Assembly (NCBI GenBank): GCA_036489315.1
Contig: DASXFZ010000063.1
Coordinates: forward strand, 1-55,294
Direction: 5' to 3'
Origin: Candidatus Cybelea sp.
Lineage (GTDB): Bacteria; Vulcanimicrobiota; Vulcanimicrobiia; Vulcanimicrobiales; Vulcanimicrobiaceae
DNA: 55,294 nt
Shown piece after piece: positions 2,519 to 17,718 of this stretch; within the stretch, counting starts at the first letter, position 1, and each line of letters starts with the position of its first letter. A program made the translations under genes and the position numbers. The notes below the pieces were generated by a model. That model did no database searches. It had not been told where the DNA came from and was given only the letters and a program-made list of their open reading frames with translations.

Positions 2519-3156
2519 AGCCCAGTCTATACCGTATTCTTGGGATTACGCCAGCCCGCAGAGCGACAAGCGAGTGAGAGAGCACACGCGACTGACTGGC
2601 GTCGCGCCCGCTGCCCCTGTCGCGGTCTTTCGATCGCGGAGCACCAAGGAGATAAAATACAAGAAATGCCACGACGCCGCAGCGTCACGGGCATAGAGGA
2701 ACGAGCCGAAACGCCGCACCCCTGGCCCAGCTCGCTGATCGCCGGCCATCGTCAAAAAAGCCTATAGAATAAGGACTTTTCGCAGCACCCCTCGCGGCTG
2801 CTCATCGCGCACGTTTTGCATTCACGTTTGCAAAAACTCGGCAACGTCGAAAAAGCTATATGGGATAACGCTTTTTCACGCGGTCCCATGATGCATGCTC
2901 CATGCGTTGTGCATCAGCTCTGGCTTTCAATGTTTGATAACCACTATGGCGTTCACTGAGGCGTATTACATAAGGGCCTTCGAACGTCCGGTGACGCTTG
3001 CTTCCGCGAGGGTTATGGCTCGCCGACCAAGATGCGATCCGCAGGCCAGCGTCGTCAGCGCAACGCCTAAACCGTGCACCTGGACGCGAATAGACATACG
3101 TTCGTGAAGAGAAGCATGTCTCGATCGCGCGCCGCTCAGTAGCTGGGCGTAGCGTC
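2519..3156. other. Intergenic region of about 640 bases
   Basis: No ORF here has protein-like composition or a plausible ribosome-binding site. The region holds the first copy of the two-part intergenic repeat (2688-2870). Further AT-rich tracts around 2750-2790 and 2845-2870 carry CTATAG-like boxes and may be promoters, but I cannot assign a direction with confidence. Between 2880 and 3156 I see nothing recognisable. Confidence 0.5.
2688..2870. repeat. Two-part intergenic repeat, copy A
   Basis: This contains CGGGCATAGAGGAA at 2688-2701 and TTTGCAAAAACT at 2827-2838. Both strings recur exactly, in the same order and at nearly the same spacing (139 against 148 bases), at 6253-6266 and 6401-6412. 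Sequence around each shared string is also similar but diverged, for example an AAAA tract followed by a TATAT or TATAG box. The element lies upstream of the serine hydrolase gene. It may be a mobile-element remnant, a shared promoter or leader, or a structured RNA. Confidence 0.5.
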
Positions 3157-4458
3157 TCAGCAGAAACTGTGCAGCACTTTTTCAGTGCCGCTTAGGGTGA
3201 TGCTGAAGACGGTGCCAGCGTTGCAGGCGCCTCCATAATACGTCGTGCCGTAGAGTTTGCCGTTCAGCCTGGTCAGCTCCGTGAGCGGATATGTGCCGTC
3301 GGCGCTCGTTGAACCGAAGGAGTACAACACCTTCACTCTGCCGCTCGGGGTAACACTGTACACGGTTCCGGAACCGTCACAATAGACGGAGCTTCCGTAT
3401 TTGCCTCCGGCGGTTGTCGTGCCGTAGAGCGTGCCGTTGACATCGATCAGGGGCGCTGCTGGGCGAGCGCCATCGACGCGTCCGCAACCTGCGTCGAAGT
3501 TGTGCAATACTTTCCCAGTGCCGTTTGTGGTGACGCTGAACACCGTTCCCTGGTCGTAAGACACTCCGCCCGCGTACGTCGTACCATAGAGCACGCCACC
3601 GAGGTCGATCAGGCCGCCATTTGCCTGTGCAGAATTACCGCTGGGAGGGTCGGTGATGAAGCTGTAAAGGTCTTTTGTTTGCCCAGTCGCGCTCATGCTG
3701 AACACAACGCCGTCATTATCCGCTCCGCCGCCATACGTCGTGCCGTACAGCCGGTTGCCGACTTCAAGCAGGCGTCCGTACGGTTTATAGCCGGCCTCGC
3801 AATACCTGCTGCTGCACCCTTCGCCAAAGCTGTGCACCACCTGCTCCACGCCGCTCTTCGTGACGCTGAAAACGGTGCCAAAGTTGTAAGTGCCGCCGGA
3901 GTATGTCGTACCGTACAGCGTTCCGTGAACGTTGGTAAGTCCGGTGGGCTCATTCCCGTCGGGTAGTTTACCGAAACTATGCAACACGTGCTCGTCGCCG
4001 CTCGTTGTAATGCTAAATACGACGCCATTGCCGTGAGCGCCGCCGCTCGAGGTGGTACCATAAAGCCCGTCACCGACGAAAATCATACTTGACGGCCCGA
4101 CACCGTCAGAGCCTTTGCCGAAGCTGTGCAATACCGTCTCTGTACCGCGTGTCGTGATGCTGAACACGGTCCCGCAGCCGCCAAAGCTGCGTGACGGACA
4201 ATAGGCGCCGCCGTATGAGGTCGTGCCATACAGTCTGCCGTTTATGGGGACTAATCGCGTCGTGGGAAAGGTGCCATCGGTGCTGGTTGCTCGCGCTAGC
4301 GATAAGGTAGGATGTTGAAAGCGCTGAGCCATTGCGCCGCTTTGCGGAATCGCGCCCGGCACGCCGACCGGCGGCTGCGATGCGCCGCATCCAGAAACTA
4401 GCGGCGCGACAAGAACGCAACTTATCAAAGTGAAGTTATTGCGTAGAGCTATCTTCAT
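3157..4458 (-). CDS. Secreted lipoprotein with seven GloVer-type repeats
   Basis: A 433-residue protein with a lipoprotein signal ending LVSGC, so it is probably anchored by a lipidated cysteine near residue 24. After a short linker it is built of seven repeats of 35-60 residues. Each carries LYGTTxxGG, then G-T-V-F-S-[IV]-T and a closing VLHSFG. This matches the choice-of-anchor tandem-repeat GloVer family, probably a beta-propeller-like fold on the cell surface. Its function is not established. The leader pattern GCGASQPP is shared with the next gene although the mature domains are unrelated. It starts at ATG 4458 and ends with a cysteine directly after the last repeat. Confidence 0.85.
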   Translation of the reverse strand: MKIALRNNFTLISCVLVAPLVSGCGASQPPVGVPGAIPQSGAMAQRFQHPTLSLARATSTDGTFPTTRLVPINGRLYGTTSYGGAYCPSRSFGGCGTVFSITTRGTETVLHSFGKGSDGVGPSSMIFVGDGLYGTTSSGGAHGNGVVFSITTSGDEHVLHSFGKLPDGNEPTGLTNVHGTLYGTTYSGGTYNFGTVFSVTKSGVEQVVHSFGEGCSSRYCEAGYKPYGRLLEVGNRLYGTTYGGGADNDGVVFSMSATGQTKDLYSFITDPPSGNSAQANGGLIDLGGVLYGTTYAGGVSYDQGTVFSVTTNGTGKVLHNFDAGCGRVDGARPAAPLIDVNGTLYGTTTAGGKYGSSVYCDGSGTVYSVTPSGRVKVLYSFGSTSADGTYPLTELTRLNGKLYGTTYYGGACNAGTVFSITLSGTEKVLHSFC

Positions 4459-4467
4459 TTTATCAAC

Positions 4468-5430
4468 CTACTGCAACTGCCATGAAATAATGATTTTACC
4501 GTTTCCAGAACGCGCCGCACCTTGACGGTTTTTCAAAACCTTCGCGCTCGACTCGACGTATGATGATCCGCCGCCGCCGCCACCGCCACCGGTGTCTCCG
4601 AATGCTGCCTCGCCTCCGCCGCCACCGCCATAGAACCCACCACCACCACCGCCGCCCCCTGGACTGGTGAGTTGCCTCGCTTTGCAGCAGCCGCCGGTAC
4701 CGCCGCTCCCGAGTTGTCCTCGCTTGCCATGCGCGGCGTGGCCACGGCCTTGCGTGTACGCGCCGCCTGCGCCGCCTTTACCGCCGCGCATTTGCGTTCC
4801 ACCAAAACCGCCTGCGCCGTCGGTGGGGCTATTGCCGCCTTTCCCTTTGCCGCCGATCTTTCCGCCGCCAGCTCCACCGGAGCCGTTGCTTCCTTGAAAA
4901 AAGGCTCCGCCGGCACCGCCGCCGCCGCCCGCGACAAGAACGCGGTCTGCTAGAGCGCTACCGCCCTGCCGCACATCAGAAGCGCCGCCGCCACCGTTAC
5001 CTCCATTCTCACTGCTATTGGTATAACCGCCAGCACCTCCGGCGCCTCCCCCGTTGAATCCGCCGCTACCAGCTAACCCATTGTAACCGTTGACGCCCTC
5101 GGCGCCGACGAGGACATAGAGCGTTTCTCCCGACGTAACAGGTAGCACGGCTTTAACCACGCCGCCGTCACCACCCATAACGTAATTCGTGCCGTCTTTG
5201 CCGCCGCTCGCGCCGTAAGCGGTGACGGTTATTGCCGTCACGTTATTTGGCACAACGAAAGTCTGCGCTGCGCCGGTGAATTTGAAAGTTTTTGACTGTG
5301 CCTTGTTATCCGGTGCTTGCGCCATCGCGCCCGGCGCGCCGATCGGCGGCTGCGATCCGCCGCACCCTGCGAGCATTGCCACAGCCGCGCAGCTCAAGAG
5401 CGCGTTTCGGCCAAAACCGAGTATCCTCAT
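4468..5430 (-). CDS. Glycine-rich surface lipoprotein
   Basis: The 320-residue protein starts at ATG 5430, which follows a GAGGGGAATAGAA ribosome-binding site. The frame is open further upstream but is not protein-like there. A lipobox LAGC and the leader GCGGSQPPIGAPGAMAQ mark it as an exported lipoprotein. A short beta-rich segment (roughly residues 35-95, including FVVPNNVTAITVTAYGASGG) precedes a long run of glycine-rich sequence with repeated GGxGGxGG. This resembles the glycine-rich domain family found in bacterial surface proteins. The very high glycine content produces open but spurious frames on both strands. It lies 9 bases upstream of the GloVer gene and is probably cotranscribed with it. 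A structural or adhesive role is inference only. Confidence 0.75.
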   Translation of the reverse strand: MRILGFGRNALLSCAAVAMLAGCGGSQPPIGAPGAMAQAPDNKAQSKTFKFTGAAQTFVVPNNVTAITVTAYGASGGKDGTNYVMGGDGGVVKAVLPVTSGETLYVLVGAEGVNGYNGLAGSGGFNGGGAGGAGGYTNSSENGGNGGGGASDVRQGGSALADRVLVAGGGGGAGGAFFQGSNGSGGAGGGKIGGKGKGGNSPTDGAGGFGGTQMRGGKGGAGGAYTQGRGHAAHGKRGQLGSGGTGGCCKARQLTSPGGGGGGGGFYGGGGGGEAAFGDTGGGGGGGGSSYVESSAKVLKNRQGAARSGNGKIIISWQLQ

Positions 5431-5640
5431 TTCTATTCCCCTCGCAGTCTCAACGGATCGGCAGCCTTCAAAGGTTCGGCGCCACCACCAAAGCCGCCTC
5501 GGCTCGGCAAAGCCAACACGGCCTCGCGATCGCGAAGCCGTGGGGAAGGGCAAAGCCGTGGGGGTGGATGAAAGCCACCATCGTTTCCCGCCGGCGCCTA
5601 ACCTATCCGTGATTAGATTAGGCGAAACAAGATTGGACCG
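5431..5640 (-). promoter_or_regulatory. Leader with spaced GGCTTT repeats upstream of the glycine-rich lipoprotein
   Basis: On the minus strand the hexamer GGCTTT, once as GGCTTC, occurs five times (plus-strand positions 5490, 5509, 5534, 5552 and 5571), mostly 18-19 bases apart with one gap of 25. Two copies are part of an exact 11-base direct repeat, CCCCACGGCTT, at 5535-5545 and 5553-5563. Several copies are flanked by complementary GC-rich bases and could form hairpins in a 5' leader. I do not recognise a known riboswitch class. Confidence 0.35.
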
Positions 5641-5715
5641 CATCATGCTAGTGCAATTGCTAGATGACTGAGCCTTCTTTTGGCCATCTAACAAAGTAAA
5701 TATGAACTTCGGCTT

Positions 5716-6185
5716 CTACTCGTTCCCGTCCGCTGGGACGCTGACCGCTGCGCCGTCCCCTGCGTAAGGTGCGACAGCTTGTTTAATAGTCTTCCGCTCC
5801 CGGCGCCCTTGCGGATAAGCCCAGTAGCCGAAATCTTGGGAGCAAAAGGTGTTTCCACCCACCACGAATGAGCCATGAATCCAAGGCTGAATAATCGACG
5901 TGTGGCCAGTAGAGGCGCAGCCACCGACCAGCTTGGTTGAACCGACGATTGTTGCTGCTGAGCCCGAGACTTGCACCCGATAGAAGCCGGTAAAGAGCTT
6001 GCCCTTCATCGCCTGATCGCCGACTGCAAGATATTGACCATCCCACTGAACGGTGTCTCCCGCGTGAAGAAAACAAGAATCTGATCTTTCTTCAGCTTCC
6101 CAACGTTCGTGGGGACGACAGTGATGGCGCGCGGTCCCATGTCTCCATTCTTGGGGTCAACGGTCGACCCGATTCGCAGCGGCAT
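5716..6185 (-). pseudogene. Frame-disrupted remnants of secreted-protein genes
   Basis: Two protein-like stretches lie in different frames. Reading leftward from about 6185, the first gives MPLRIGSTVDPKNGD, then RAITVVPTNVGKLKKDQIL. A second frame then gives HAGDTVQWDGQYLAVGDQA and runs to the stop at 5716, with VVGGNTFCSQDFGYWAYPQG near its end. Both resemble segments of secreted beta-propeller-like proteins that I associate with Eremiobacterota. Whether this is one frameshifted gene or a fusion of two fragments cannot be told from the sequence alone. No intact start or signal peptide is present. Confidence 0.5.
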
Positions 6186-6252
6186 GGCAGCTCAGCCTGG
6201 CCGGGGGGCTCGTTTTGGGAGGCTCTAACTCCTATCCCGCAACGCGGCTCTG

Positions 6253-6440
6253 CGGGCATAGAGGAAGGGGCTCGAAACGGCGCCCCCTACCCTCGCTCGG
6301 CGATCCGTGTGATCGCAAACAATCCCGTAAAATGGGGCGTTTCGCAATCGCGCGCCACGTCTCGACCGTCGCACGAAGCTCGTGGGGTTTGCGAGCTACT
6401 TTTGCAAAAACTTGCAGCGTGTCAAAACAACCTATAGTGT
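6253..6440. repeat. Two-part intergenic repeat, copy B
   Basis: Exact matches to copy A are CGGGCATAGAGGAA at 6253-6266 and TTTGCAAAAACT at 6401-6412, followed by an AT-rich tract with CCTATAG at 6431-6437. The rest is diverged. As with copy A, a minus-strand coding region (here a remnant) lies just to its left. No protein-coding ORF is convincing between 6186 and 6498. Confidence 0.5.
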
Positions 6441-6498
6441 ACGGCTTTTGCATCGGCTCGCGATGGGTGCCCGAGCATGATGGATCGGGGCGCCAACA

Positions 6499-7128
6499 TC
6501 ACTTACAGCAGTCGTATCCGCGCCAGGCTTCCCTGCCCTCTCTTACAAGAAAGAACACAACCGCTAGTGAGGCAACGCCATCGACCCACCAAACACGAAA
6601 AATCAGTTGCGCGACGAGGCTGATAACTACGACCACACCGAGATAGCCGCAGGTAATCGCCTCGATAGCATCCGCACGCAATGCTCGACTCCCAAGGTTT
6701 TCCGCAGTCTTGAGCTTAGCCCGAGCGAGCGCGTACATTGCCGGGATGGAAATGACAGCTAGTAGCAGTCCGGCGAGCGAGAAGTCCGCGCCGACCCGGT
6801 ACCAAAGACTCGACCCGGCCGTCAGGATTACATACGCTGCTAGAGCGAATAGCAACGCACTAGCTACCTTGCTCGCGCGTATTTCAATCGCCTCGGGAAA
6901 TGCGAGACCCGCTTTTAGTTCGACCGCTAATCGCCACATTAGCACACCGGCGGATGAAAGCTCGATGATGCTGTCCAGACCGAATGCCATTAGGACAAGG
7001 CTGCGGGCCATGATAGACGTAGTAATGGCGACGGCAGCTTCTATGATCATCCACGCAACGGTTAACCATTCGAGAACAAAGGCGTGCCGTATAAGGGTGG
7101 CTCGCGGCCTATTGACTAGGTGCTCCAA
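6499..7128 (-). CDS. Cation-diffusion-facilitator-like membrane protein, transmembrane domain only
   Basis: A 209-residue protein with about six hydrophobic segments. It resembles the transmembrane domain of CDF metal-cation/proton antiporters. Candidate metal-site residues are in FGLDSIIELSS (second helix) and RADAIEAITC (fifth helix), where the family carries an HxxxD or DxxxD pair. The cytoplasmic C-terminal domain of classical CDF proteins is missing, as in short cation-transporter variants. The start appears to be TTG at 7128. Its neighbour is a TSUP-type exporter gene, which suggests an island cargo for metal or oxyanion efflux. The substrate is unknown. Confidence 0.75.
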   Translation of the reverse strand: MEHLVNRPRATLIRHAFVLEWLTVAWMIIEAAVAITTSIMARSLVLMAFGLDSIIELSSAGVLMWRLAVELKAGLAFPEAIEIRASKVASALLFALAAYVILTAGSSLWYRVGADFSLAGLLLAVISIPAMYALARAKLKTAENLGSRALRADAIEAITCGYLGVVVVISLVAQLIFRVWWVDGVASLAVVFFLVREGREAWRGYDCCK

Positions 7129-7203
7129 TTGCTTATCCTGTTTTCCTCGTGGCCCAGCAAACTACTTTCGGCGGATGCGAAACTCGCGGCGAATCGGAAG
7201 GTC

Positions 7204-7943
7204 TCAACCACGAAACCATAACCCCAACGCACCAACGTATAGAATCATGCAGAGCGCCACACGCAGCGCACGTTGCGGCAGTTTGTGCGCGAGAGCAACT
7301 CCGAAACCGACGCTAAGAACGGCTCCGGTACCTAGTATCAGACCGACGCGCCAATCTGCAAAGCCTGCAAGTGTGTAAGTCGAAATCGCGATCACTATTG
7401 CGGGCAGCACAACAGCGATCCCCATACCTTGGGCCTCCGTTTGAGAGAGCCCGAAAAGTAACGCGAACAACGGGATCGTAAACGTCGCCCCCCCAACTCC
7501 GAACAGCCCAGAGCAGAATCCTCCGCTCGCTCCGATCGCCGATGCAGAGGGCCATTGAAGCCTCCTGGTCATAGCTTGTCGCCAAAATGCGCTGAAGATC
7601 GTGAACGTTGCCAAAGCTGCGAGGAAAACCGCCAAGCCTTTCCGCATGGACTGTTCTGCCAGGTGAACTGCAATGTGCGCGCCGATGAAGGTTGCGATCG
7701 CGGAACCGCCTGCGGTTGCTGCAATCAAACGCCTGTCTAGGCGGCTTCGGCGGGCGTATGCCAAAGTGCGATGACGCCGACCGGAAGTTGCATCACAAGA
7801 CTGGTCCTCTGAGCCAGTTGTTGACTGAAGCCGAGAAAGCCGAGGATCGGCGCCGCGATAACGCCTCCGGTAATCCCGAACGTACCCGCGACGTAGCCAA
7901 GTGCGAGGCCTAATAGTAGATCGAGCGCCAGACTGCCTTGCAT
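7204..7943 (-). pseudogene. TSUP-family (TauE/SafE) anion exporter, interrupted by a frameshift
   Basis: Two frames together give one TSUP permease of about 245 residues. The first, from ATG 7943, covers the first two helices with the family glycine motif FGITGGVIAAPIL and ends at 7737 with LWHTPAEAA. The second continues from about 7762 with AYARRSRLDRRLIAATAGG and holds the second half-repeat, with FGVGGATFTIPLF. The frames overlap around 7740-7765. Joining LWH directly to YARRSRLDRR would restore the family pattern, consistent with loss of one T in the TTTGGCATACG stretch. It is either a true pseudogene or a sequence error. It is divergent from the MarR gene and shares its operator region. 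Confidence 0.75.
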
Positions 7944-8002
7944 CAGCTAAGATCGTTCGCGAGAGCAGTATAGAAACTTTTTGATTGACGAGGCGTCGGA
8001 AT

Positions 8003-8019
8003 AGTTGTATTATGCAACT
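8003..8019. promoter_or_regulatory. Probable MarR-family operator
   Basis: AGTTGTATTATGCAACT is an inverted repeat (7 of 8 positions match between arms) of the AGTTGCAT/ATGCAACT type commonly bound by MarR dimers. It lies between the divergent TSUP and marR genes and overlaps the likely ATG of marR at 8012, so autorepression and control of the exporter are plausible. Confidence 0.6.
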
Positions 8020-8467
8020 GTTGAGCCGTCGAACTACCGGGGTCTCGCCCGTTACCTTCGAGCAGCAGATCGTCGGATTGATCCGCGCGCTCGGATTGCA
8101 TCGGCCGGACCAAACCCCTTGCGGAGCGCCGATTTCCGTGGGGGAAGCTCAGGCGCTTTTCGAGCTCGCCCACGACCCTGGCATCTCTCAAAATGAGCTC
8201 GCCGCGCGACTGCATTTAGAGAAGAGCACCGTCAGCCGACTATCTAAGATGCTCGAACAACGCGGCTGGCTCGACCGCTTGAGGGACAAGGACGATTCTC
8301 GATTGTTGAGGCTCCGGCTGACCGCGGCTGGATCAAAGGCGGTGCATCGTCTCTCCGCTTCGCGGCGGGCGCGATTCGCTAAGGTCTTTGATGCAATACC
8401 CGCGCAGAAGCGCGAGGCCCTCTTGGATTCACTCTCTCTTCTATCCGAGGTACTTAATGAAGCGTAA
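8012..8467 (+). CDS. MarR-family transcriptional regulator
   Basis: The 151-residue protein carries a winged helix-turn-helix: ISQNELAARLHLEKSTVSRL is the helix-turn-helix, followed by the wing LRDKDDSRLLRLRLTAAG. These are characteristic of MarR repressors, which bind palindromes as dimers and often respond to small ligands or metals. A TTG at 7985 would add nine residues, but ATG 8012 gives a better N-terminus. This start lies inside the palindromic operator at 8003-8019. The gene overlaps the next one by 11 bases. Divergent orientation from the TSUP exporter suggests it controls both. Confidence 0.85.
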   Translation: MQLLSRRTTGVSPVTFEQQIVGLIRALGLHRPDQTPCGAPISVGEAQALFELAHDPGISQNELAARLHLEKSTVSRLSKMLEQRGWLDRLRDKDDSRLLRLRLTAAGSKAVHRLSASRRARFAKVFDAIPAQKREALLDSLSLLSEVLNEA

Positions 8468-8948
8468 TGCTTATACGGCCATCATGGCTTTGGTGCTCGC
8501 TGCATTCCCATTTGTAGTTCGAGCGGATGATGCGCACCAGAATATGGTCATGGAACACGGCGAGCAGGTGATGCCGTTCGACCAGGCCCAAGCGATGCAC
8601 ATGTTCTTGCCAAGCGCAACTGGAGGTGTCGTTGAAATCGTAGTTCACGACATGAATCCTACGCAGATCGCGCTCGTTCGGTCGCATTTGCTTCAGGAGG
8701 CAGCGAAGTTTGCGCGGGGTGACTACTCCGCCCCGGCGTATATCCACGGAAAGAGTATGCCCGGCCTAGTTCAGTTAAAAGCGGGCTCTTCTCGTATGTC
8801 AGTACACTACTTCGAAACGCCGAGTGGAGCAGCGATTACTCTCGGCAGTACCGATCAAACTCTGATCTCAGCCATTCACCAATGGCTCGCAGCGCAGCAG
8901 AGTGACCACAACTCAGGTAAGATAAATCACTGCGACATGCAGATGTAG
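8457..8948 (+). CDS. Small exported protein of unknown function, coupled to the MarR gene
   Basis: The 163-residue protein starts at ATG 8457 inside the 3' end of marR, indicating translational coupling. It has an N-terminal signal peptide (MKRNAYTAIMALVLAAFPFV, cleavage near VRADD). The mature part begins with a His/Met-rich segment (HQNMVMEHGEQVMPFDQAQ) and has a conserved-looking core with HDMNPTQIALVRSHL and YIHGKSMPGL. I recall homologues misnamed as aspartate carbamoyltransferase in databases; there are no ATCase motifs here. The His/Met content and the neighbouring transporters suggest a periplasmic metal-related role, which is inference. It ends 25 bases before the convergent cas1 3' end. 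Confidence 0.75.
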   Translation: MKRNAYTAIMALVLAAFPFVVRADDAHQNMVMEHGEQVMPFDQAQAMHMFLPSATGGVVEIVVHDMNPTQIALVRSHLLQEAAKFARGDYSAPAYIHGKSMPGLVQLKAGSSRMSVHYFETPSGAAITLGSTDQTLISAIHQWLAAQQSDHNSGKINHCDMQM

Positions 8949-8972
8949 GGGCTAACGGTAATAGATATCCCC

Positions 8973-10527
8973 CTATTTCAAGCCGTCGGTTAGTGCGACC
9001 ACAGCGTCCCAGTGCCGTGGGTGCGGTGCCCGCTTCCCAGCGCGAATGCGCGAGCAGGCTGCGAGGGACAAGCCCGTCGCTTTCGCAATCGCATTCAGGG
9101 TAAGGTGGTTGAGCTTGGCCACGACCTCGCGCATGAACCATGCATCATCGCGAGCACTCCCACGATGCCCCTGCGTCCACAGTCGGTTTTGGCGGTGCCC
9201 TTCGCCGATTGCCTCGCCTCGCTTCTGGTTCATCCCAGGATCGCGGCGCGGATCGTTACCGCTTGCGGTCTGCGCCGCGAGGGCTTTGCGAGCGGCTTCG
9301 ATTGCGCGCAGGCCATGCTCGCGACGAGCTTTGGGCATGCATTCGTCGCAATGACGGCGCCGACGCTTGAGTACCGGCTTACCGCACAACGCACAAGGGA
9401 TCGAGTTCGCTGCGAGGCCCTCCGCATGAGGGGCGCCCCACAGCTTGGCGGCATACGGCCGGGGCTGCGAGGTTTTGCGAGGCGTATGCGAGAGCGGGGA
9501 AGGCTGGGCTCCGGCCTTCGTTCGACGCACGGCCGCGCTAACGGAACGCATGCGAGGTTCAATGCTTCGATTACTGAGCGCGTCGCGGAACGTTTGTGCG
9601 AGGTTTGCCACGATCGGCCGCAGACATTCGCGCCAATGCGGCAGCGTCAGTGCGAGTTCATGGGTCAACGGTGCGGCAACTCGACAGACTCCATTTGAAA
9701 GTTCAACGAAGTCGCGCGAGATGAAAGTCCGACCTTCCAGCAGATCGAGCAGAAACGCGTCTACATCGGGCCGAGCGGGTTCCATGGCATCGAGCGCAAA
9801 ACGAATCGCGATTCCTCTGGTCGGCGTGCAGCACGCCTAAGGTCGGATCGAGACCAGCGCCGAGGAGTGCGAGGCGCGCTTCCGATTCAAGAAGCGCGTA
9901 CGTATAGTTGAGCAATGCATTAACCGGATTAGTCGCGGCGCGAGGTGCGCCGGTCAGGATCGAAGAGCGGGAATCGTACCGCGCCCATCGCGCCGGGACG
10001 CGAGCAAGGTCCCGACCTCGCAACCGTATCGGCACGGATGACCACGCATTCCAATAGATCGCCGCTGCCTGTGCCTCGCAAATGCGCACCTGTTCGATGG
10101 AGTTCACGCGATCCAGCGTCTCACACAGCGCATCGAAGCCTTGAAGGTTTACACGAAGGCGTGAGGGATTAGCGCGCTGGCCGTTGAGCTTCTGTGCGAT
10201 GAGACCTCGCGCGACTTCCACGTCGAGTCCGGTCGCGACGGCGAGCGCTTGCGGGCGGCGGATCGGCAAGCCGTCGTATCCAAATGGAACCGAATGTGCG
10301 AGAACCTCGCCATTGGGATTAAGCTGGATAAGTGTCGCGCCAATCGCGCGCAGCCATGCGAGGGCCTCAAGCGTGACCGTTCCGCTTTTGCCTAGCAGGA
10401 CAAGCCGTTCGAGTCCTGAGCCCGCGCGGTCGAGGGCGATCGAGCGACGATGCGGGCCAATCCCGTCCTCAATACGGAGCTTGCCGTACAATACCCGCAG
10501 GCTGATCCCGTAATCGCCGTTCCATGT
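8973..10527 (-). pseudogene. cas1: Cas1-family integrase with zinc-ribbon and HTH tail, frameshifted
   Basis: Two frames reconstruct one Cas1-like protein of about 515 residues. The first begins near 10527 (WNGDYGISLRV) and has the N-terminal Cas1 beta-domain (RLVLLGKSGTVTLEALAWL) and the helical domain with YALLESEARL and GVLHADQRNRDSF. The second continues with ALDAMEPARPDVDAFLLDLL. The metal-binding Glu, His and Asp/Glu of Cas1 are all present once the frames are joined. The break is at an AAAA run at 9798-9801, where dropping one base restores the frame. After the Cas1 domain come a CxxC-CxxC ribbon (CALCGKPVLKRRRRHCDEC) and a C-terminal helix-turn-helix (AIAKATGLSLAACSRIRAGK). There is no good in-frame start, and the 5' end abuts the polymerase gene. 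Confidence 0.8.
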
Positions 10528-12471
10528 GTCTATCTCGACTTCGCGTCCATGTACCCGACCGTTTTCTCGCTCCTGAGTGTCTGGTTTGAACACCTGATTC
10601 CCCAGAGACTTGAGCCGATCGCCGTAGACCCGGAGGAGGCTCAGGCACTTCTCGCTGCGGTCTCCGAGAAGCCAGAGATTCTCTTCGACAAATCGGAATG
10701 GCCGAAGCTCGCATTCTTCGCCCAGGTCGAACCCAACGGGGCGTTTCTTCCAGCGCGCGTAGAGGTTCCAACGAAATACGCCAAGTCGCTGAGAAACATC
10801 GTCCTCGGACCGGTTGAGTCCGAGCATCCACTATGGTACGCGGGACCTGACCTCGCAGCGGCGGCGATCGCGGGTGAACCGCTCCCTCGCATCGTGAAGG
10901 CTTGGAGGCTGCGTCCGGTCGGCGTTCAGGACTCGCTTCGGTCGGTCGCCTTTCGGGGCGAGGTGACGATTGATCCTCGCACGGATGACTTCTTCCGTGT
11001 TCTCATCGAGGAACGGAAACGCGTGAGCGACAATCCGCTTGATGACGAGTTACGCAATACCGGGTTCAAAGTCGTTGCGAACTCCGGATCGTATGGCGAC
11101 TTTGCCGAAACGAATCCCGCTGACATTGATCCAGACATTGAGCCGACGCCGCGAGCCGTCGAGGTCTATGCTGAGAGCGACTTCACGACCTACGTCAATC
11201 GGCCCGAGAGCCCCGGACGGTTCTGCTTCTTCCCGACCGCATCGCTTGTCACGGCTGGAGCGCGCCTGTTGCTGGCGCTCGGATTCCATGACGTTGCAAA
11301 GGCAGGGGGCGAAGTCGCATATTGCGACACCGACAGTCTTATCGTCGTGGCATCGGAGCAAAGCAAGCTCGTACCATGCGATGGGGGTCCGTATCGCCTC
11401 GCCGATGGTCGGCACAGCGTGCGCGCACTTTCTTGGAAGAGCATCAAGGAAATACGCGAGCGCTTCGAAGCGCTTAACCCGTATCGCAGCGGAACGGGTC
11501 CACTTTTGAAACCCGAGGCCGAGAACTTTGCGGGCGATAAGAAGACGCCAACGCAGCTCTGGTTCTACGGCGTTTCGGAGAAAGTGTATGCCCTCTTTAA
11601 TCTCGACTCGAACGACGCTCCGGTAATCCGTAAATACTCCGCGCACGCGCTCGGGCAATATCAATCGCCGATCGCTGGAGACCGTGACCGCGAATGGATT
11701 CGGCTCGCGTAGCAACGGAAGGTACGCGCGTTCGGACGGCCGATCGAATCGTTTGTCTGGGAGCAGCAGCCCGCTTTAGCACAGTTGACCCTCTCAACGT
11801 GGTCAGTTATGAAGCCCTACCTGCGGAATCCGAGTATCAGGCCATTCGACTTTCTCATCGTTGCAACGCCAACACGTTCCTTTAGCGACTTTGCACAAGG
11901 CTTCACTGCTTGTTGCGGCGACCAGCGGCCATCATGTTTCCTGTTTGATAATCCGGCTGATTGGCTTTCGCAGGAATGGTGTTGCCTGCGTTGCGGGAAG
12001 CTGACGCCAATGCGCCGTTTTCGTTCGTATGAGAGCGTTTTACATGGGACACTCGACAGCTTCGAGGTCAAGCGCCTCTGCGCCGATGGAGCGGAGCCGG
12101 GTCCTAACACGATGCGCGGTTTGACGATCGCACGGCCTGTTCGCGTTGAGTCGGTGACCCTTATCGGTAAGGAAGTTATCGTAGACCCGACCGATAGCGA
12201 TGAGGCGCTGACAGCGGAGATGCTTAGCGAGACGAGCATGATCAAGTACGTCAACCCCGCAGAGGCGCTCGACGTCTTGCGCGCGCGAGTACGCGAGGCC
12301 GGTATTAAGGCGGTTTCGCGGGAGAGCGGGCTGAGCCGTCGTCATGTTCAGGAGTTCGTCAATGCGGGAAGTACGCCGCAACCTGAGACGATTGCAAGGC
12401 TTGAGGCAGCTCTCAGCCAGGTCGAGGAAAGGGGCACGGCAGGGCTGAAACGACAGCCTGCGCCTGCCTAG
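10522..12471 (+). pseudogene. Family B DNA polymerase-like gene, 5'-truncated and with an in-frame TAG
   Basis: This one frame shows the palm motifs of family B polymerases: motif A VYLDFASMYPT (catalytic Asp codon 10537-10539), motif B FKVVANSGSYG near 11065-11098, and motif C YCDTDS (Asp codons 11326-11328 and 11332-11334). An in-frame TAG at 11710-11712 splits it. The frame then continues, QRKVRAFGRPIESFVW, into a second part, MKPYLRNPSIRPFDFLIVAT, which ends at 12471 with a helix-turn-helix (AVSRESGLSRRHVQEFVNAG). The joined protein resembles long actinobacterial PolB-like proteins I remember. The exonuclease and N-terminal regions expected before motif A are absent, because sequence left of 10522 is cas1 on the other strand. 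It therefore cannot encode a complete polymerase. Confidence 0.75.
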
Positions 12472-15811: not shown

Positions 15812-16004
15812 ATGATCGAAATCTACGGCACAACCTTCGCGCGCGCGACGGAGATTGAAAGCGGCATGCTGGTCCGGCGGCTCGCGGGTTTCGAACTAAT
15901 CGTAGACGTAGGGTTCTACTGAGGACGATGCGGTCCGTCTGTGGCTTCAGGACGGCAGCACGATTACTCTTGGGTCGAGCGGTCTCGTCGAAGTGGCACA
16001 GTGA
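15812..16004 (+). pseudogene. Small unknown protein gene with a frameshift
   Basis: A ribosome-binding site GGAAGGAAA precedes ATG 15812. The frame gives MIEIYGTTFARATEIESGML and ends LIVDVGFY at the stop at 15922. Shifting frame by one base at that point gives TEDDAVRLWLQDGSTITLG, then LVEVAQ and a stop at 16004. The joined product of about 64 residues is coherent, acidic and ends cleanly, so a one-base indel near 15915-15920 probably broke the gene. No family was recognised. Confidence 0.45.
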
Positions 16005-16237: not shown

Positions 16238-16450
16238 ATGGAGTCCAAACGTCATCATGAAGTCGAACCGCTGATGGACACCCAAGAAGTATGTGCCGCC
16301 CTATGCTGCAAAAAATCGAAACTGTACGAGCTGATCGGCAGGGGCCTCTTAGAATCGGTGAAGCTCGGTGGCTCGCGCCGCTTTCGGCCGGCCGCTGTCC
16401 GTGACTGCATTCAGCGTCACGTTGATATGCGTCACAGAAATCGTCGCTAG
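16238..16450 (+). CDS. Excisionase-like helix-turn-helix DNA-binding protein
   Basis: The 70-residue protein contains DTQEVCAALCCKKSKLYELI, GRGLLESVKLGGSRRF and RPAAVRDCI. This is the HTH_17 / excisionase pattern, in which a winged helix is followed by a recognition segment and a conserved Arg-Arg-Phe. It lies three bases before the tyrosine integrase gene on the same strand, the usual arrangement of directionality factor and integrase. Its likely role is to direct excision of the island or to regulate integrase expression. Confidence 0.8.
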   Translation: MESKRHHEVEPLMDTQEVCAALCCKKSKLYELIGRGLLESVKLGGSRRFRPAAVRDCIQRHVDMRHRNRR

Positions 16451-16453
16451 GTC

Positions 16454-17707
16454 ATGGCTCGTCGAGCACGTGGCGAAGGGACACTCCATAGGCGGAAGGA
16501 TGGCCGATGGGAAGGGAAGCTGCGCACCGGGGCACGTGCCGGCAAACTCGCGCGCAAGAGCTTTTACGGTGAGACGCGCCAGGACGTCGCCGAGCAGATG
16601 CGCCGCTATGCGGCTCGCCATGCACTCCCCATGGATCTCGACCTCACGCTAAAAGAATACCTCGAACAATGGCTAGCAGACGGAGAGTGGCGAGCCAACA
16701 CCTATCGCTTGCGAAGGCACGCCGTCGACCGCCACATCGTCCCGCACATCGGCGCGCGTCGCGTTGCCGACCTGGATGTCGATGATGTCAAGGTGCTGCT
16801 CCGGAAGCTGAAGGAGCTCGAGGTAGGCACCGCCACCCGCAAGCAAGTACACGCGACCCTTAATGCCGCGCTCAACGCGCTGTTCCGGGAACGCAAGATC
16901 ATCTTCAATCCTTGTTCTCTTGTGTCCGCACCACGCTACGAGCCGAAGGAGAAGCTCGTTCTCGATCGCTACGGGGCAAAGCGGCTAATGGAAATGGCCG
17001 AGGGGCAAACCCAGGTGCTCGTTATCATGGCTGCGACGCTCGGGATGCGCGAGGGCGAACTCTTTGGATTGCTTTGGGACTGCGTCGATCTCGAAAAGCG
17101 CACCATCGCCATTGTGCGACAACTAACGGAGGATGTCGCCGGTAGGCTTACGCTCGGACCGCTCAAAACTAAAGCCTCCCGGCGCACGTTGGAACTCCCC
17201 GACCTGACTCTGCGCGCGCTCAGAGCTTGGCACAGCGCCCGCCGTGCCGACGGCTACAATGGCTGGCTCGTCTTCACCGACAGCCAAGGCAACCCGCTGC
17301 GCAAGAGTAACTTCATCCGCCGTACCTTCAAGCCGTTACTGCGCCGCGCCGAATTACCTGACGTGGACTTTCACTCGCTGCGCCATTCCTCCAACTCATT
17401 CCTCATTGAGGAGGGTGCTGACCCCATTTTGGTCGCGCGACGCAACGGCCACGTCGATACACGCATGGTGCTCGACCGTTACGGTCACATGTTCGAGGGC
17501 GCACGCCGACAGGCAGCCGAAACGATGGATCGCGTTTTCGCGACCGTCGAGATTGGTCGTCAAATGGTCGTCAAAAAATCGGATGCCGTTCCGAAAAATC
17601 AAACGCCGATTCCAAAAAGCCTTATGAAATCGGCGCGTTTCTTGGTGGAGATGGGGGGACTCGAACCCCCGACCCCTTACATGCGAAGCAAGTGCTCTAC
17701 CAGCTGA
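16454..17707 (+). CDS. Tyrosine recombinase (phage-type integrase)
   Basis: A 417-residue recombinase starting at ATG 16454. Residues 1-50 form the AP2-like arm-binding region (GEGTLHRRKDGRWEGKLRTG), 62-150 the SAM-like core-binding domain, and 165-350 the catalytic domain. Catalytic residues visible are R199 (GMREGELFGL), K238 or K240, H307 and R310 (DFHSLRHS), H333 (RNGHVDTRMV) and the nucleophile Y343 (DRYGHM). The last ~22 codons run through the 3' half of a tRNA-Ala gene on the other strand, giving the odd tail MGGLEPPTPYMRSKCSTS. This is the signature of an element integrated at a tRNA 3' end. Intact by sequence. Confidence 0.92.
   Translation: MARRARGEGTLHRRKDGRWEGKLRTGARAGKLARKSFYGETRQDVAEQMRRYAARHALPMDLDLTLKEYLEQWLADGEWRANTYRLRRHAVDRHIVPHIGARRVADLDVDDVKVLLRKLKELEVGTATRKQVHATLNAALNALFRERKIIFNPCSLVSAPRYEPKEKLVLDRYGAKRLMEMAEGQTQVLVIMAATLGMREGELFGLLWDCVDLEKRTIAIVRQLTEDVAGRLTLGPLKTKASRRTLELPDLTLRALRAWHSARRADGYNGWLVFTDSQGNPLRKSNFIRRTFKPLLRRAELPDVDFHSLRHSSNSFLIEEGADPILVARRNGHVDTRMVLDRYGHMFEGARRQAAETMDRVFATVEIGRQMVVKKSDAVPKNQTPIPKSLMKSARFLVEMGGLEPPTPYMRSKCSTS
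17643..17707. mobile_element. Probable attachment site: 3' part of tRNA-Ala overlapped by the integrase gene
   Basis: The integrase coding sequence reads into the tRNA from its 3' CCA end at 17643 and stops at 17707 in the D-arm. Integration at a tRNA 3' end should leave a duplicate of this segment at the other end of the island. I looked for the T-arm and acceptor sequence in bases 1-17600 and did not see a copy, so the other end probably lies left of the window or has been lost. Confidence 0.6.
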
Positions 17708-17718
17708 GCTACATCCCC
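17643..17718 (-). tRNA. tRNA-Ala (anticodon CGC)
   Basis: On the minus strand, bases 17718 to 17643 fold as a standard cloverleaf. The acceptor GGGGATG pairs with CATCTCC (one G-T), and the D-arm is GCTCAGCTGGTAGAGC. The anticodon stem CTTGC/GTAAG encloses TTCGCAT, giving anticodon CGC. The T-arm is GGGGGTTCGAGTCCCCC, the discriminator is A, and CCA is encoded. It reads GCG alanine codons, which are frequent in this GC-rich DNA. Confidence 0.95.

Follow-up and report, generated by a model that had tools for sequence, protein, structure and literature searches.

A damaged cas1–polB pair in a soil Candidatus Eremiobacterota genome, read as the remnant of a bacterial casposon

Introduction

How does a gene for a Cas1-family integrase come to lie against a gene for a family B DNA polymerase (PolB) in a bacterium, at a place where no CRISPR array is seen? 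Casposons are transposons moved by Cas1, the enzyme used by CRISPR immunity for storing memories; the CRISPR adaptation machinery is proposed to have arisen from them, and those that have been studied are archaeal. The core genes of casposon families 2 and 3 are published, with a C-terminal helix-turn-helix (HTH) on both Cas1 and PolB in family 2, a ZBD and an HTH on Cas1 in family 3, and four bacterial hosts, of family 3, listed in 2014 (NitAL212-C1, StrAlb-C1, HenMar-C1 and AceAut-C1) (PMC4046053). Archaeal casposons are described with terminal inverted repeats (TIRs), target-site duplications (TSDs) of ∼14–15 bp, targeting of gene 3' ends (EF-2, tRNA) and tandem copies (PMC4046053, PMC6563490, PMC10359463, PMC9939771). 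No paper joining casposons with Eremiobacterota was found in the literature searched, whose coverage was partial.

The window analysed here, a stretch of 55,294 nucleotides, is the entire contig C63 in the genome (3.1 Mb, 95% complete) of a soil Candidatus Eremiobacterota bacterium. We understand the Cas1–PolB feature in it, with high confidence, as a no longer functional copy of a bacterial casposon, that is, of a DNA transposon encoding a Cas1-homologue integrase (casposase) and its own family B DNA polymerase.

Results

A frameshifted cas1 and a truncated polB

The feature comprises two gene remnants and the junction between them:

8973–10512, minus strand: cas1 (casposase) remnant with Cas1 domain, zinc-binding-like stretch and C-terminal HTH; one frameshift; ∼25 first residues absent
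10513–10518: deletion junction, joining the cas1 5' end to polB codon ∼321–332
10519–12471, plus strand: polB remnant with motifs A, B, C and C-terminal HTH; in-frame TAG at 11710–11712; N-terminal exonuclease part absent

The first-pass annotation had claimed a Cas1 with its catalytic motifs spread over two frames, opposite a family B polymerase with motifs A, B and C, in a damaged copy, and had proposed profile searches of Cas1 and PolB. The claim is borne out. The frame at 9703–10827 (minus strand) matches Pfam Cas_Cas1 at E 2.6e-26, and PADLOC Cas1 models match down to 8.6e-29; the second frame (8973–9785) carries on the alignment with intact relatives, to which identity is 76.6% at 9799–10512 and 64% at 8988–9800. 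The motifs CEAQAA, LHADQR and ALDAMEP form a complete set over the two frames, which are separated by a single frameshift near 9788–9800, at a TTTT run, and a CxxC...CxxC stretch resembling a zinc-binding site was recognized by eye. The polymerase motifs can be read directly (A, YLDFASMYP near 10530; B, ANSGSYG near 11070; C, YCDTDS near 11320). Pfam DNA_pol_B alone gives the window PolB just a weak match (E 0.33) and, run against the host genome, no match; a profile built from 28 casposon PolBs matches 10519–12417 at E 7e-122, over model positions 321–945 of 954. The damage to polB consists of the one nonsense codon and the loss of the N-terminal third, including the exonuclease part.

Two further claims hold in part. 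Both proteins do end in a likely HTH, given weak Pfam HTH_3 matches (Cas1, E 8e-4; PolB, E 3e-3), although this is not an added feature of the present pair, being known from family 2 (PMC4046053). Cas1 does lie beside PolB, yet their adjacency is not the normal layout: in the related locus L048 (cas1 at 5280–7007, polB from 10195), ∼4 kb separate the cas1 start from the corresponding point in polB, compared with 6 bases in the window, and the head-to-head contact is therefore a deletion scar. What is missing corresponds, in the related intact layout, to the HTH genes, the HNH gene and the polB N-terminus.

An intact casposon in the same genome

The intact relative that the first-pass annotation had recommended seeking, together with its TIRs and target duplication, is present in the window's own genome at C40:694–15974 (15,281 bp). 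Its five-gene core reads:

3998–5356, minus strand: cas1, intact, 452 aa
5310–6341, minus strand: HTH-like gene, 343 aa
6458–6973, plus strand: HTH-like gene, 171 aa
6970–7608, plus strand: HNH-like gene
7605–10457, plus strand: polB, 950 aa, exonuclease and polymerase motifs complete

The TIR is perfect over 30 bp (694–723 and 15945–15974) and is flanked by a perfect 14-bp direct repeat, GCGGCATAATCCAG; the left duplication directly abuts, on its outer side, an inverted-repeat end belonging to another element. Among solved structures, the Methanosarcina mazei casposase 6opm comes closest to the C40 Cas1 (E 3.5e-19). The PolB profile found no match among PDB sequences, and the polymerase family was seen there only after fold comparison, in which family B polymerases, phi29 and Pol alpha among them, match the predicted structure of the C40 PolB (mean pLDDT 86). 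The HNH and HTH genes have no Pfam or NCBIfam match; HNH-like and HTH-like are identities suggested by position, inspection by eye and conservation.

Two casposon lineages and where they insert

One Eremiobacterota family frequently carries casposons, which occur there as two lineages, each with its own targets, a finding that is new within the literature searched. The C40-like lineage (A-type) inserts at one site in a conserved gene of ∼400 aa, normally single-copy and found in 56/60 relatives. This gene is split near residue 174–178 in five genomes (G029, G050, G001, G009 and G020), and the fragment on contig C57 of the host genome starts at the same codon, which places a split there too. 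TSDs at the site are ATGGGTTTCGCAGA, CTTGGGTTCGCAGA and CTCGGCTTTTCGTC. When the flanks in G029 are joined, an open frame is restored across the site, and most relatives have uninterrupted orthologues. Inspection by eye had suggested a C11 (clostripain-like) peptidase; Pfam, NCBIfam and PDB gave no support, and we therefore call it a conserved gene without assigned function. The C40 and G003 insertion sites lie outside this gene and match its target at 21/32 bases, a score exceeded at only two positions in a 55-kb comparison scan. Such agreement hints at, but does not prove, recognition of a leader as it has been measured for the Aciduliprofundum boonei casposase (PMC6614799). Separately, the same gene is split near residues 190–200 without a casposon signature in L194/L195 (G047:C18) and L192/L193 (G048), its halves in G047 lying ∼100 kb apart.

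The window-like lineage (B-type), with terminal repeats GGGATAGGAGTTAG... or GGGCATAGGGGAACG..., inserts at the 3' end of secA, an essential gene identified here by NCBIfam. Pairwise comparison downstream of cas1/polB, which returned mainly host repeats and gene families, had pointed to this 3' end. Since the B-type duplication covers the stop codon, secA stays intact. On contig C20 of G003 the repeat CTTACGCTGCGGCTC occurs three times (14272, 21856 and 38245), with elements of 7.6 and 16.4 kb in between and a further element end beyond; a single genome thus has a tandem array at the secA stop codon, new within the literature searched. The host's own secA, on contig C47, directly adjoins a B-type repeat end (C47:34565), for which no partner was found within 34 kb. 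Brief stretches that copy the secA 3' end, detached from the gene, also adjoin casposon ends (window 2640–2688, L048 2720–2761, L165 280–324) and exceed the 14-bp duplication in length. The element L045/L189 (G020:C41) combines an A-type-like Cas1, a B1-like PolB, B-like terminal repeats, the A-type target and a 14-bp TSD; judging by this mosaic, casposon modules seem to have been exchanged.

Four TIR-bounded A-type elements carry differing defence-like genes, recognized by profile matches to defence families:

C40 (L003 10482–13979 and L049 379–1911): Type ISP restriction-modification enzyme, Cas4-like/RNase H protein
G003 (L035 240–3295): SIR2 and HerA
G029: OLD-family protein (L036 16357–18099) and AAA/NsnB-like protein, one in each of two elements
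G050 (L038 66–2336): nSTAND3-Mrr protein

Candidate element ends in the window and a probable island nearby

A weight matrix (PWM) for the terminal repeat, trained on other loci and reaching at most 20.0 in 20 shuffles, locates three repeat-like ends left of the Cas1–PolB pair. With the features around them, these are:

2640–2688, plus strand: secA 3'-end-like stretch (..KYKKCHDAAAS..), the usual B-type target; the genome's own secA is on C47
2689–2726, plus strand: B-type terminal-repeat-like end GGGCATAGAGGAACG..., PWM 32.0; left end of another element or remnant
6201–6238, minus strand: B-type terminal-repeat-like end GGGATAGGAGTTAG..., PWM 37.4; right end of a neighbouring element
6239–6253: 15-bp spacer GCAACGCGGCTCTGC between back-to-back terminal repeats, resembling the secA 3'-end target; candidate target-site copy
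6254–6291, plus strand: B-type terminal-repeat-like end GGGCATAGAGGAAGG..., PWM 26.4; candidate left end of the element carrying the cas1/polB remnant
6499–8948: possible cargo between left end and cas1, membership uncertain
6499–7128, minus strand: cation efflux gene, possible cargo
7204–7764, minus strand: TauE gene, possible cargo
7985–8467, plus strand: MarR gene, possible cargo
8388–8948, plus strand: gene of no assigned family, possible cargo

The repeat pair at 6238/6254, enclosing 15 bases, is arranged as in tandem insertions; as left end of the damaged copy, that at 6254 is the strongest candidate. The right terminal repeat of this copy and a matching TSD were looked for and not found. 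For this reason we infer the copy's own past transposition from its relatives; taken alone, it would not prove mobility. Two lipoprotein-like genes lie at 3157–5694, one of them matching the ALK/LTK glycine-rich domain; the family recurs near many casposon remnants in relatives, and also in L042, L043, L048 and L053.

Further right, at 16238–17718, a tyrosine recombinase and an HTH_17 gene lie beside tRNA-Ala(CGC) and probably belong to an integrative island. Rather than having inserted itself, the window copy might have been carried in by this larger island with its recombinase (16454–17707), a scenario that we consider unlikely on balance while giving it more weight than any other rival below. 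An integrase and an excisionase-like HTH_17 gene do adjoin the tRNA, several casposon ends and remnants fall within the same left 17.7 kb, and the missing right end and TSD would be in keeping with passive carriage. Against it, the contig starts at position 1 and the window yielded no additional tRNA 3' end; because of the latter, the island boundaries are unproven.

Decay of the window copy

With its Cas1 frameshifted and its polymerase lacking the exonuclease part and carrying a stop, the window copy is immobile by itself. Read through the frameshift, the window Cas1 has a short end branch (0.10) in the Cas1 tree, from which we take the decay to be recent. The same short branch, and the position of one break as a homopolymer frameshift, could also be expected if the living organism had Cas1 and PolB whole and assembly errors had produced the breaks. 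This we regard as very improbable: the frameshift could be a sequencing error in a metagenome-assembled genome, but the deletion and the nonsense codon together could not, the polB stop and the loss of ∼4 kb including part of PolB being independent of the frameshift, and broken copies are common in relatives.

Casposons across related genomes

The casposon polymerase is present in 15/60 related genomes, several of which hold many copies, many of these broken; Cas1 is likewise multicopy and often broken, with up to 7 matches in one genome (G016). Across the phylum, 26/149 genomes match the PolB profile at E 1e-10, nearly all within the window's own family. Searches of viral contigs, with a single protein and with the PolB profile, confirmed nothing, and PolB had no match in plasmid and phage collections. 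Among 80 loci of named archaeal and bacterial genomes, most have Cas1 next to PolB. The gene order cas1(−) HTH171(+) HNH(+) polB(+) is kept, HTH171 being found in 83/86 loci and HNH in 81/86.

A mechanical search found an exact repeat of 13–15 bp, nearly always 14 bp, beside an inverted repeat in 44/71 loci; two of these, L085 and L100, are probably false positives, and one locus entered the count twice. The control gave 4/71, every one only at threshold. TIR and exact 14-bp TSD are put at about 40 related loci. A separate, ungapped search for TIRs in loci of 20 kb missed ends beyond that range. TIR and TSD also occur together in G003, G029 (two tandem elements), G050, G020 and G035, and TSDs of the 14-bp class include ATGGGTTTCGCAGA, GCAGCGAGTGCCAT and CTTGGGTTCGCAGA. 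At L161 131–6535 (G035:C3), a 6.4-kb element with TIR and TSD contains cas1 without polB and is followed by another terminal repeat; it is possibly non-autonomous.

These loci bear on the idea that Cas1 and PolB form an immobile, stand-alone pair that was domesticated, repair and defence being examples of its use. No ends can be demonstrated for the window copy, and some relatives have unrelated genes right after cas1 and polB, as such a pair might. For the lineage the idea is already refuted by the TIRs and exact TSDs of the loci just described, and several copies per genome and the target frame restored in G029 further oppose it; overall we judge it hardly tenable.

Cas1 phylogeny and the question of CRISPR

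In a tree of 90 Cas1 sequences, whose rows do not include the published references of casposon families 1–4, the window Cas1 falls in a starred bacterial casposase clade (99/98) with members from Streptomyces, Chloroflexota, Acidobacteriota, Gemmatimonadota and Eremiobacterota, and within it in a starred B-type subclade (100/96). Joining the two halves in frame left the nearest rows and the placement the same in a second tree. The clade holds Streptomyces noursei/zinciresistens, the former's kin grouping with the window Cas1, family 3 references being absent from the tree; sister to it are Nitrosomonas and Hyphomonadaceae rows. Archaeal casposases group apart in a supported clade of their own, as do the CRISPR Cas1 sequences of the window's phylum in a starred group. 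Some Cas1 in the wider set are CRISPR Cas1 (L054–L058), three with an adjoining cas2-like ORF noted by eye.

The host genome has two Cas1 matches, in the window and on C40, each adjoining a casposon PolB, and none was found outside casposons. In line with the earlier observation that neither array nor cas2 was visible, no repeat-spacer array was found in the window or in the casposon contigs examined, and a Cas2 search of the genome gave no match. Despite the Cas1 domain profile match, a remnant of a CRISPR–Cas adaptation module is thus rejected, its probability practically nil, given the lack of cas2 in the 95% complete genome, the lack of an array in the contigs examined and a tree that sets the window Cas1 apart from same-phylum Cas1 with cas2-like neighbours.

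Discussion

The first reading of the window as a casposon relative was right, as follows from the TIR, TSD and five-gene core of C40 and from the placement of the window Cas1, in the tree that this reading had called for, within the bacterial casposase clade and apart from CRISPR Cas1. Core genes, TIRs, 14-bp TSDs, a frame restored at the empty site, tandem insertion at the same target and decay of many copies can all be read from the DNA. Copies that still function most probably move as characterised casposons do. By that analogy, the casposase would bind the terminal inverted repeats, recognise a leader upstream of the target, cut the specific target with a 14-bp stagger and join both ends, and gap repair would then give the 14-bp duplication; PolB would, in its proposed role, copy the element.

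The kind of element is already known; the host, the targets and the cargo are new within the literature searched. Like family 3, these casposons are bacterial, have HNH and HTH core genes, TIR and TSD, carry a C-terminal ZBD and HTH on Cas1 as in AceAut-C1, and share a Cas1 clade with Streptomyces noursei/zinciresistens, in a tree that lacks the family references themselves. They differ from family 3 in the host phylum, new within the literature searched, in their targets (the ∼400-aa gene and the secA stop codon) and in forming tandem arrays in bacteria. Gene order, HTH on both C-termini and the 14-bp TSD recall family 2 of Methanosarcina and Aciduliprofundum (PMC4046053, PMC6614799), as does tandem insertion at the same target (PMC10359463, PMC6563490), whereas the archaeal rows make up their own supported Cas1 clade. 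Pipolins and Polintons likewise encode a family B polymerase, but the casposon integrase is Cas1 and not a tyrosine recombinase or a retroviral-type integrase. The CRISPR adaptation module (Cas1–Cas2) has a homologous integrase and, by repeated insertion at one site with target duplication, produces the same repeat–insert–repeat pattern; unlike it, the present system has no Cas2 and no crRNA array, and the inserts are whole transposons of 6–19 kb with TIRs.

This likeness leads to a broader reading that we offer tentatively, as possible rather than probable. The secA stop codon might be a permanent landing place where whole elements pile up as repeat-separated tandem arrays, the sister lineage using one conserved gene in its stead; because the elements carry different anti-phage systems, such sites might amount to defence islands that are exchangeable and that a Cas1 integrase assembles, a natural large-scale analogue of the CRISPR array. 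A benefit of the defence cargo is something that we only infer; the profile matches nonetheless suggest bacterial casposons as carriers of anti-phage defence genes.

Here, then, is a bacterial phylum with two casposon lineages that offer clean TIRs, 14-bp duplications, defined targets, tandem arrays, intact copies and same-site insertions in several genomes. The new casposases, with their known natural targets, would allow tests of how Cas1 chooses its site, and of why repeat insertion builds an array.
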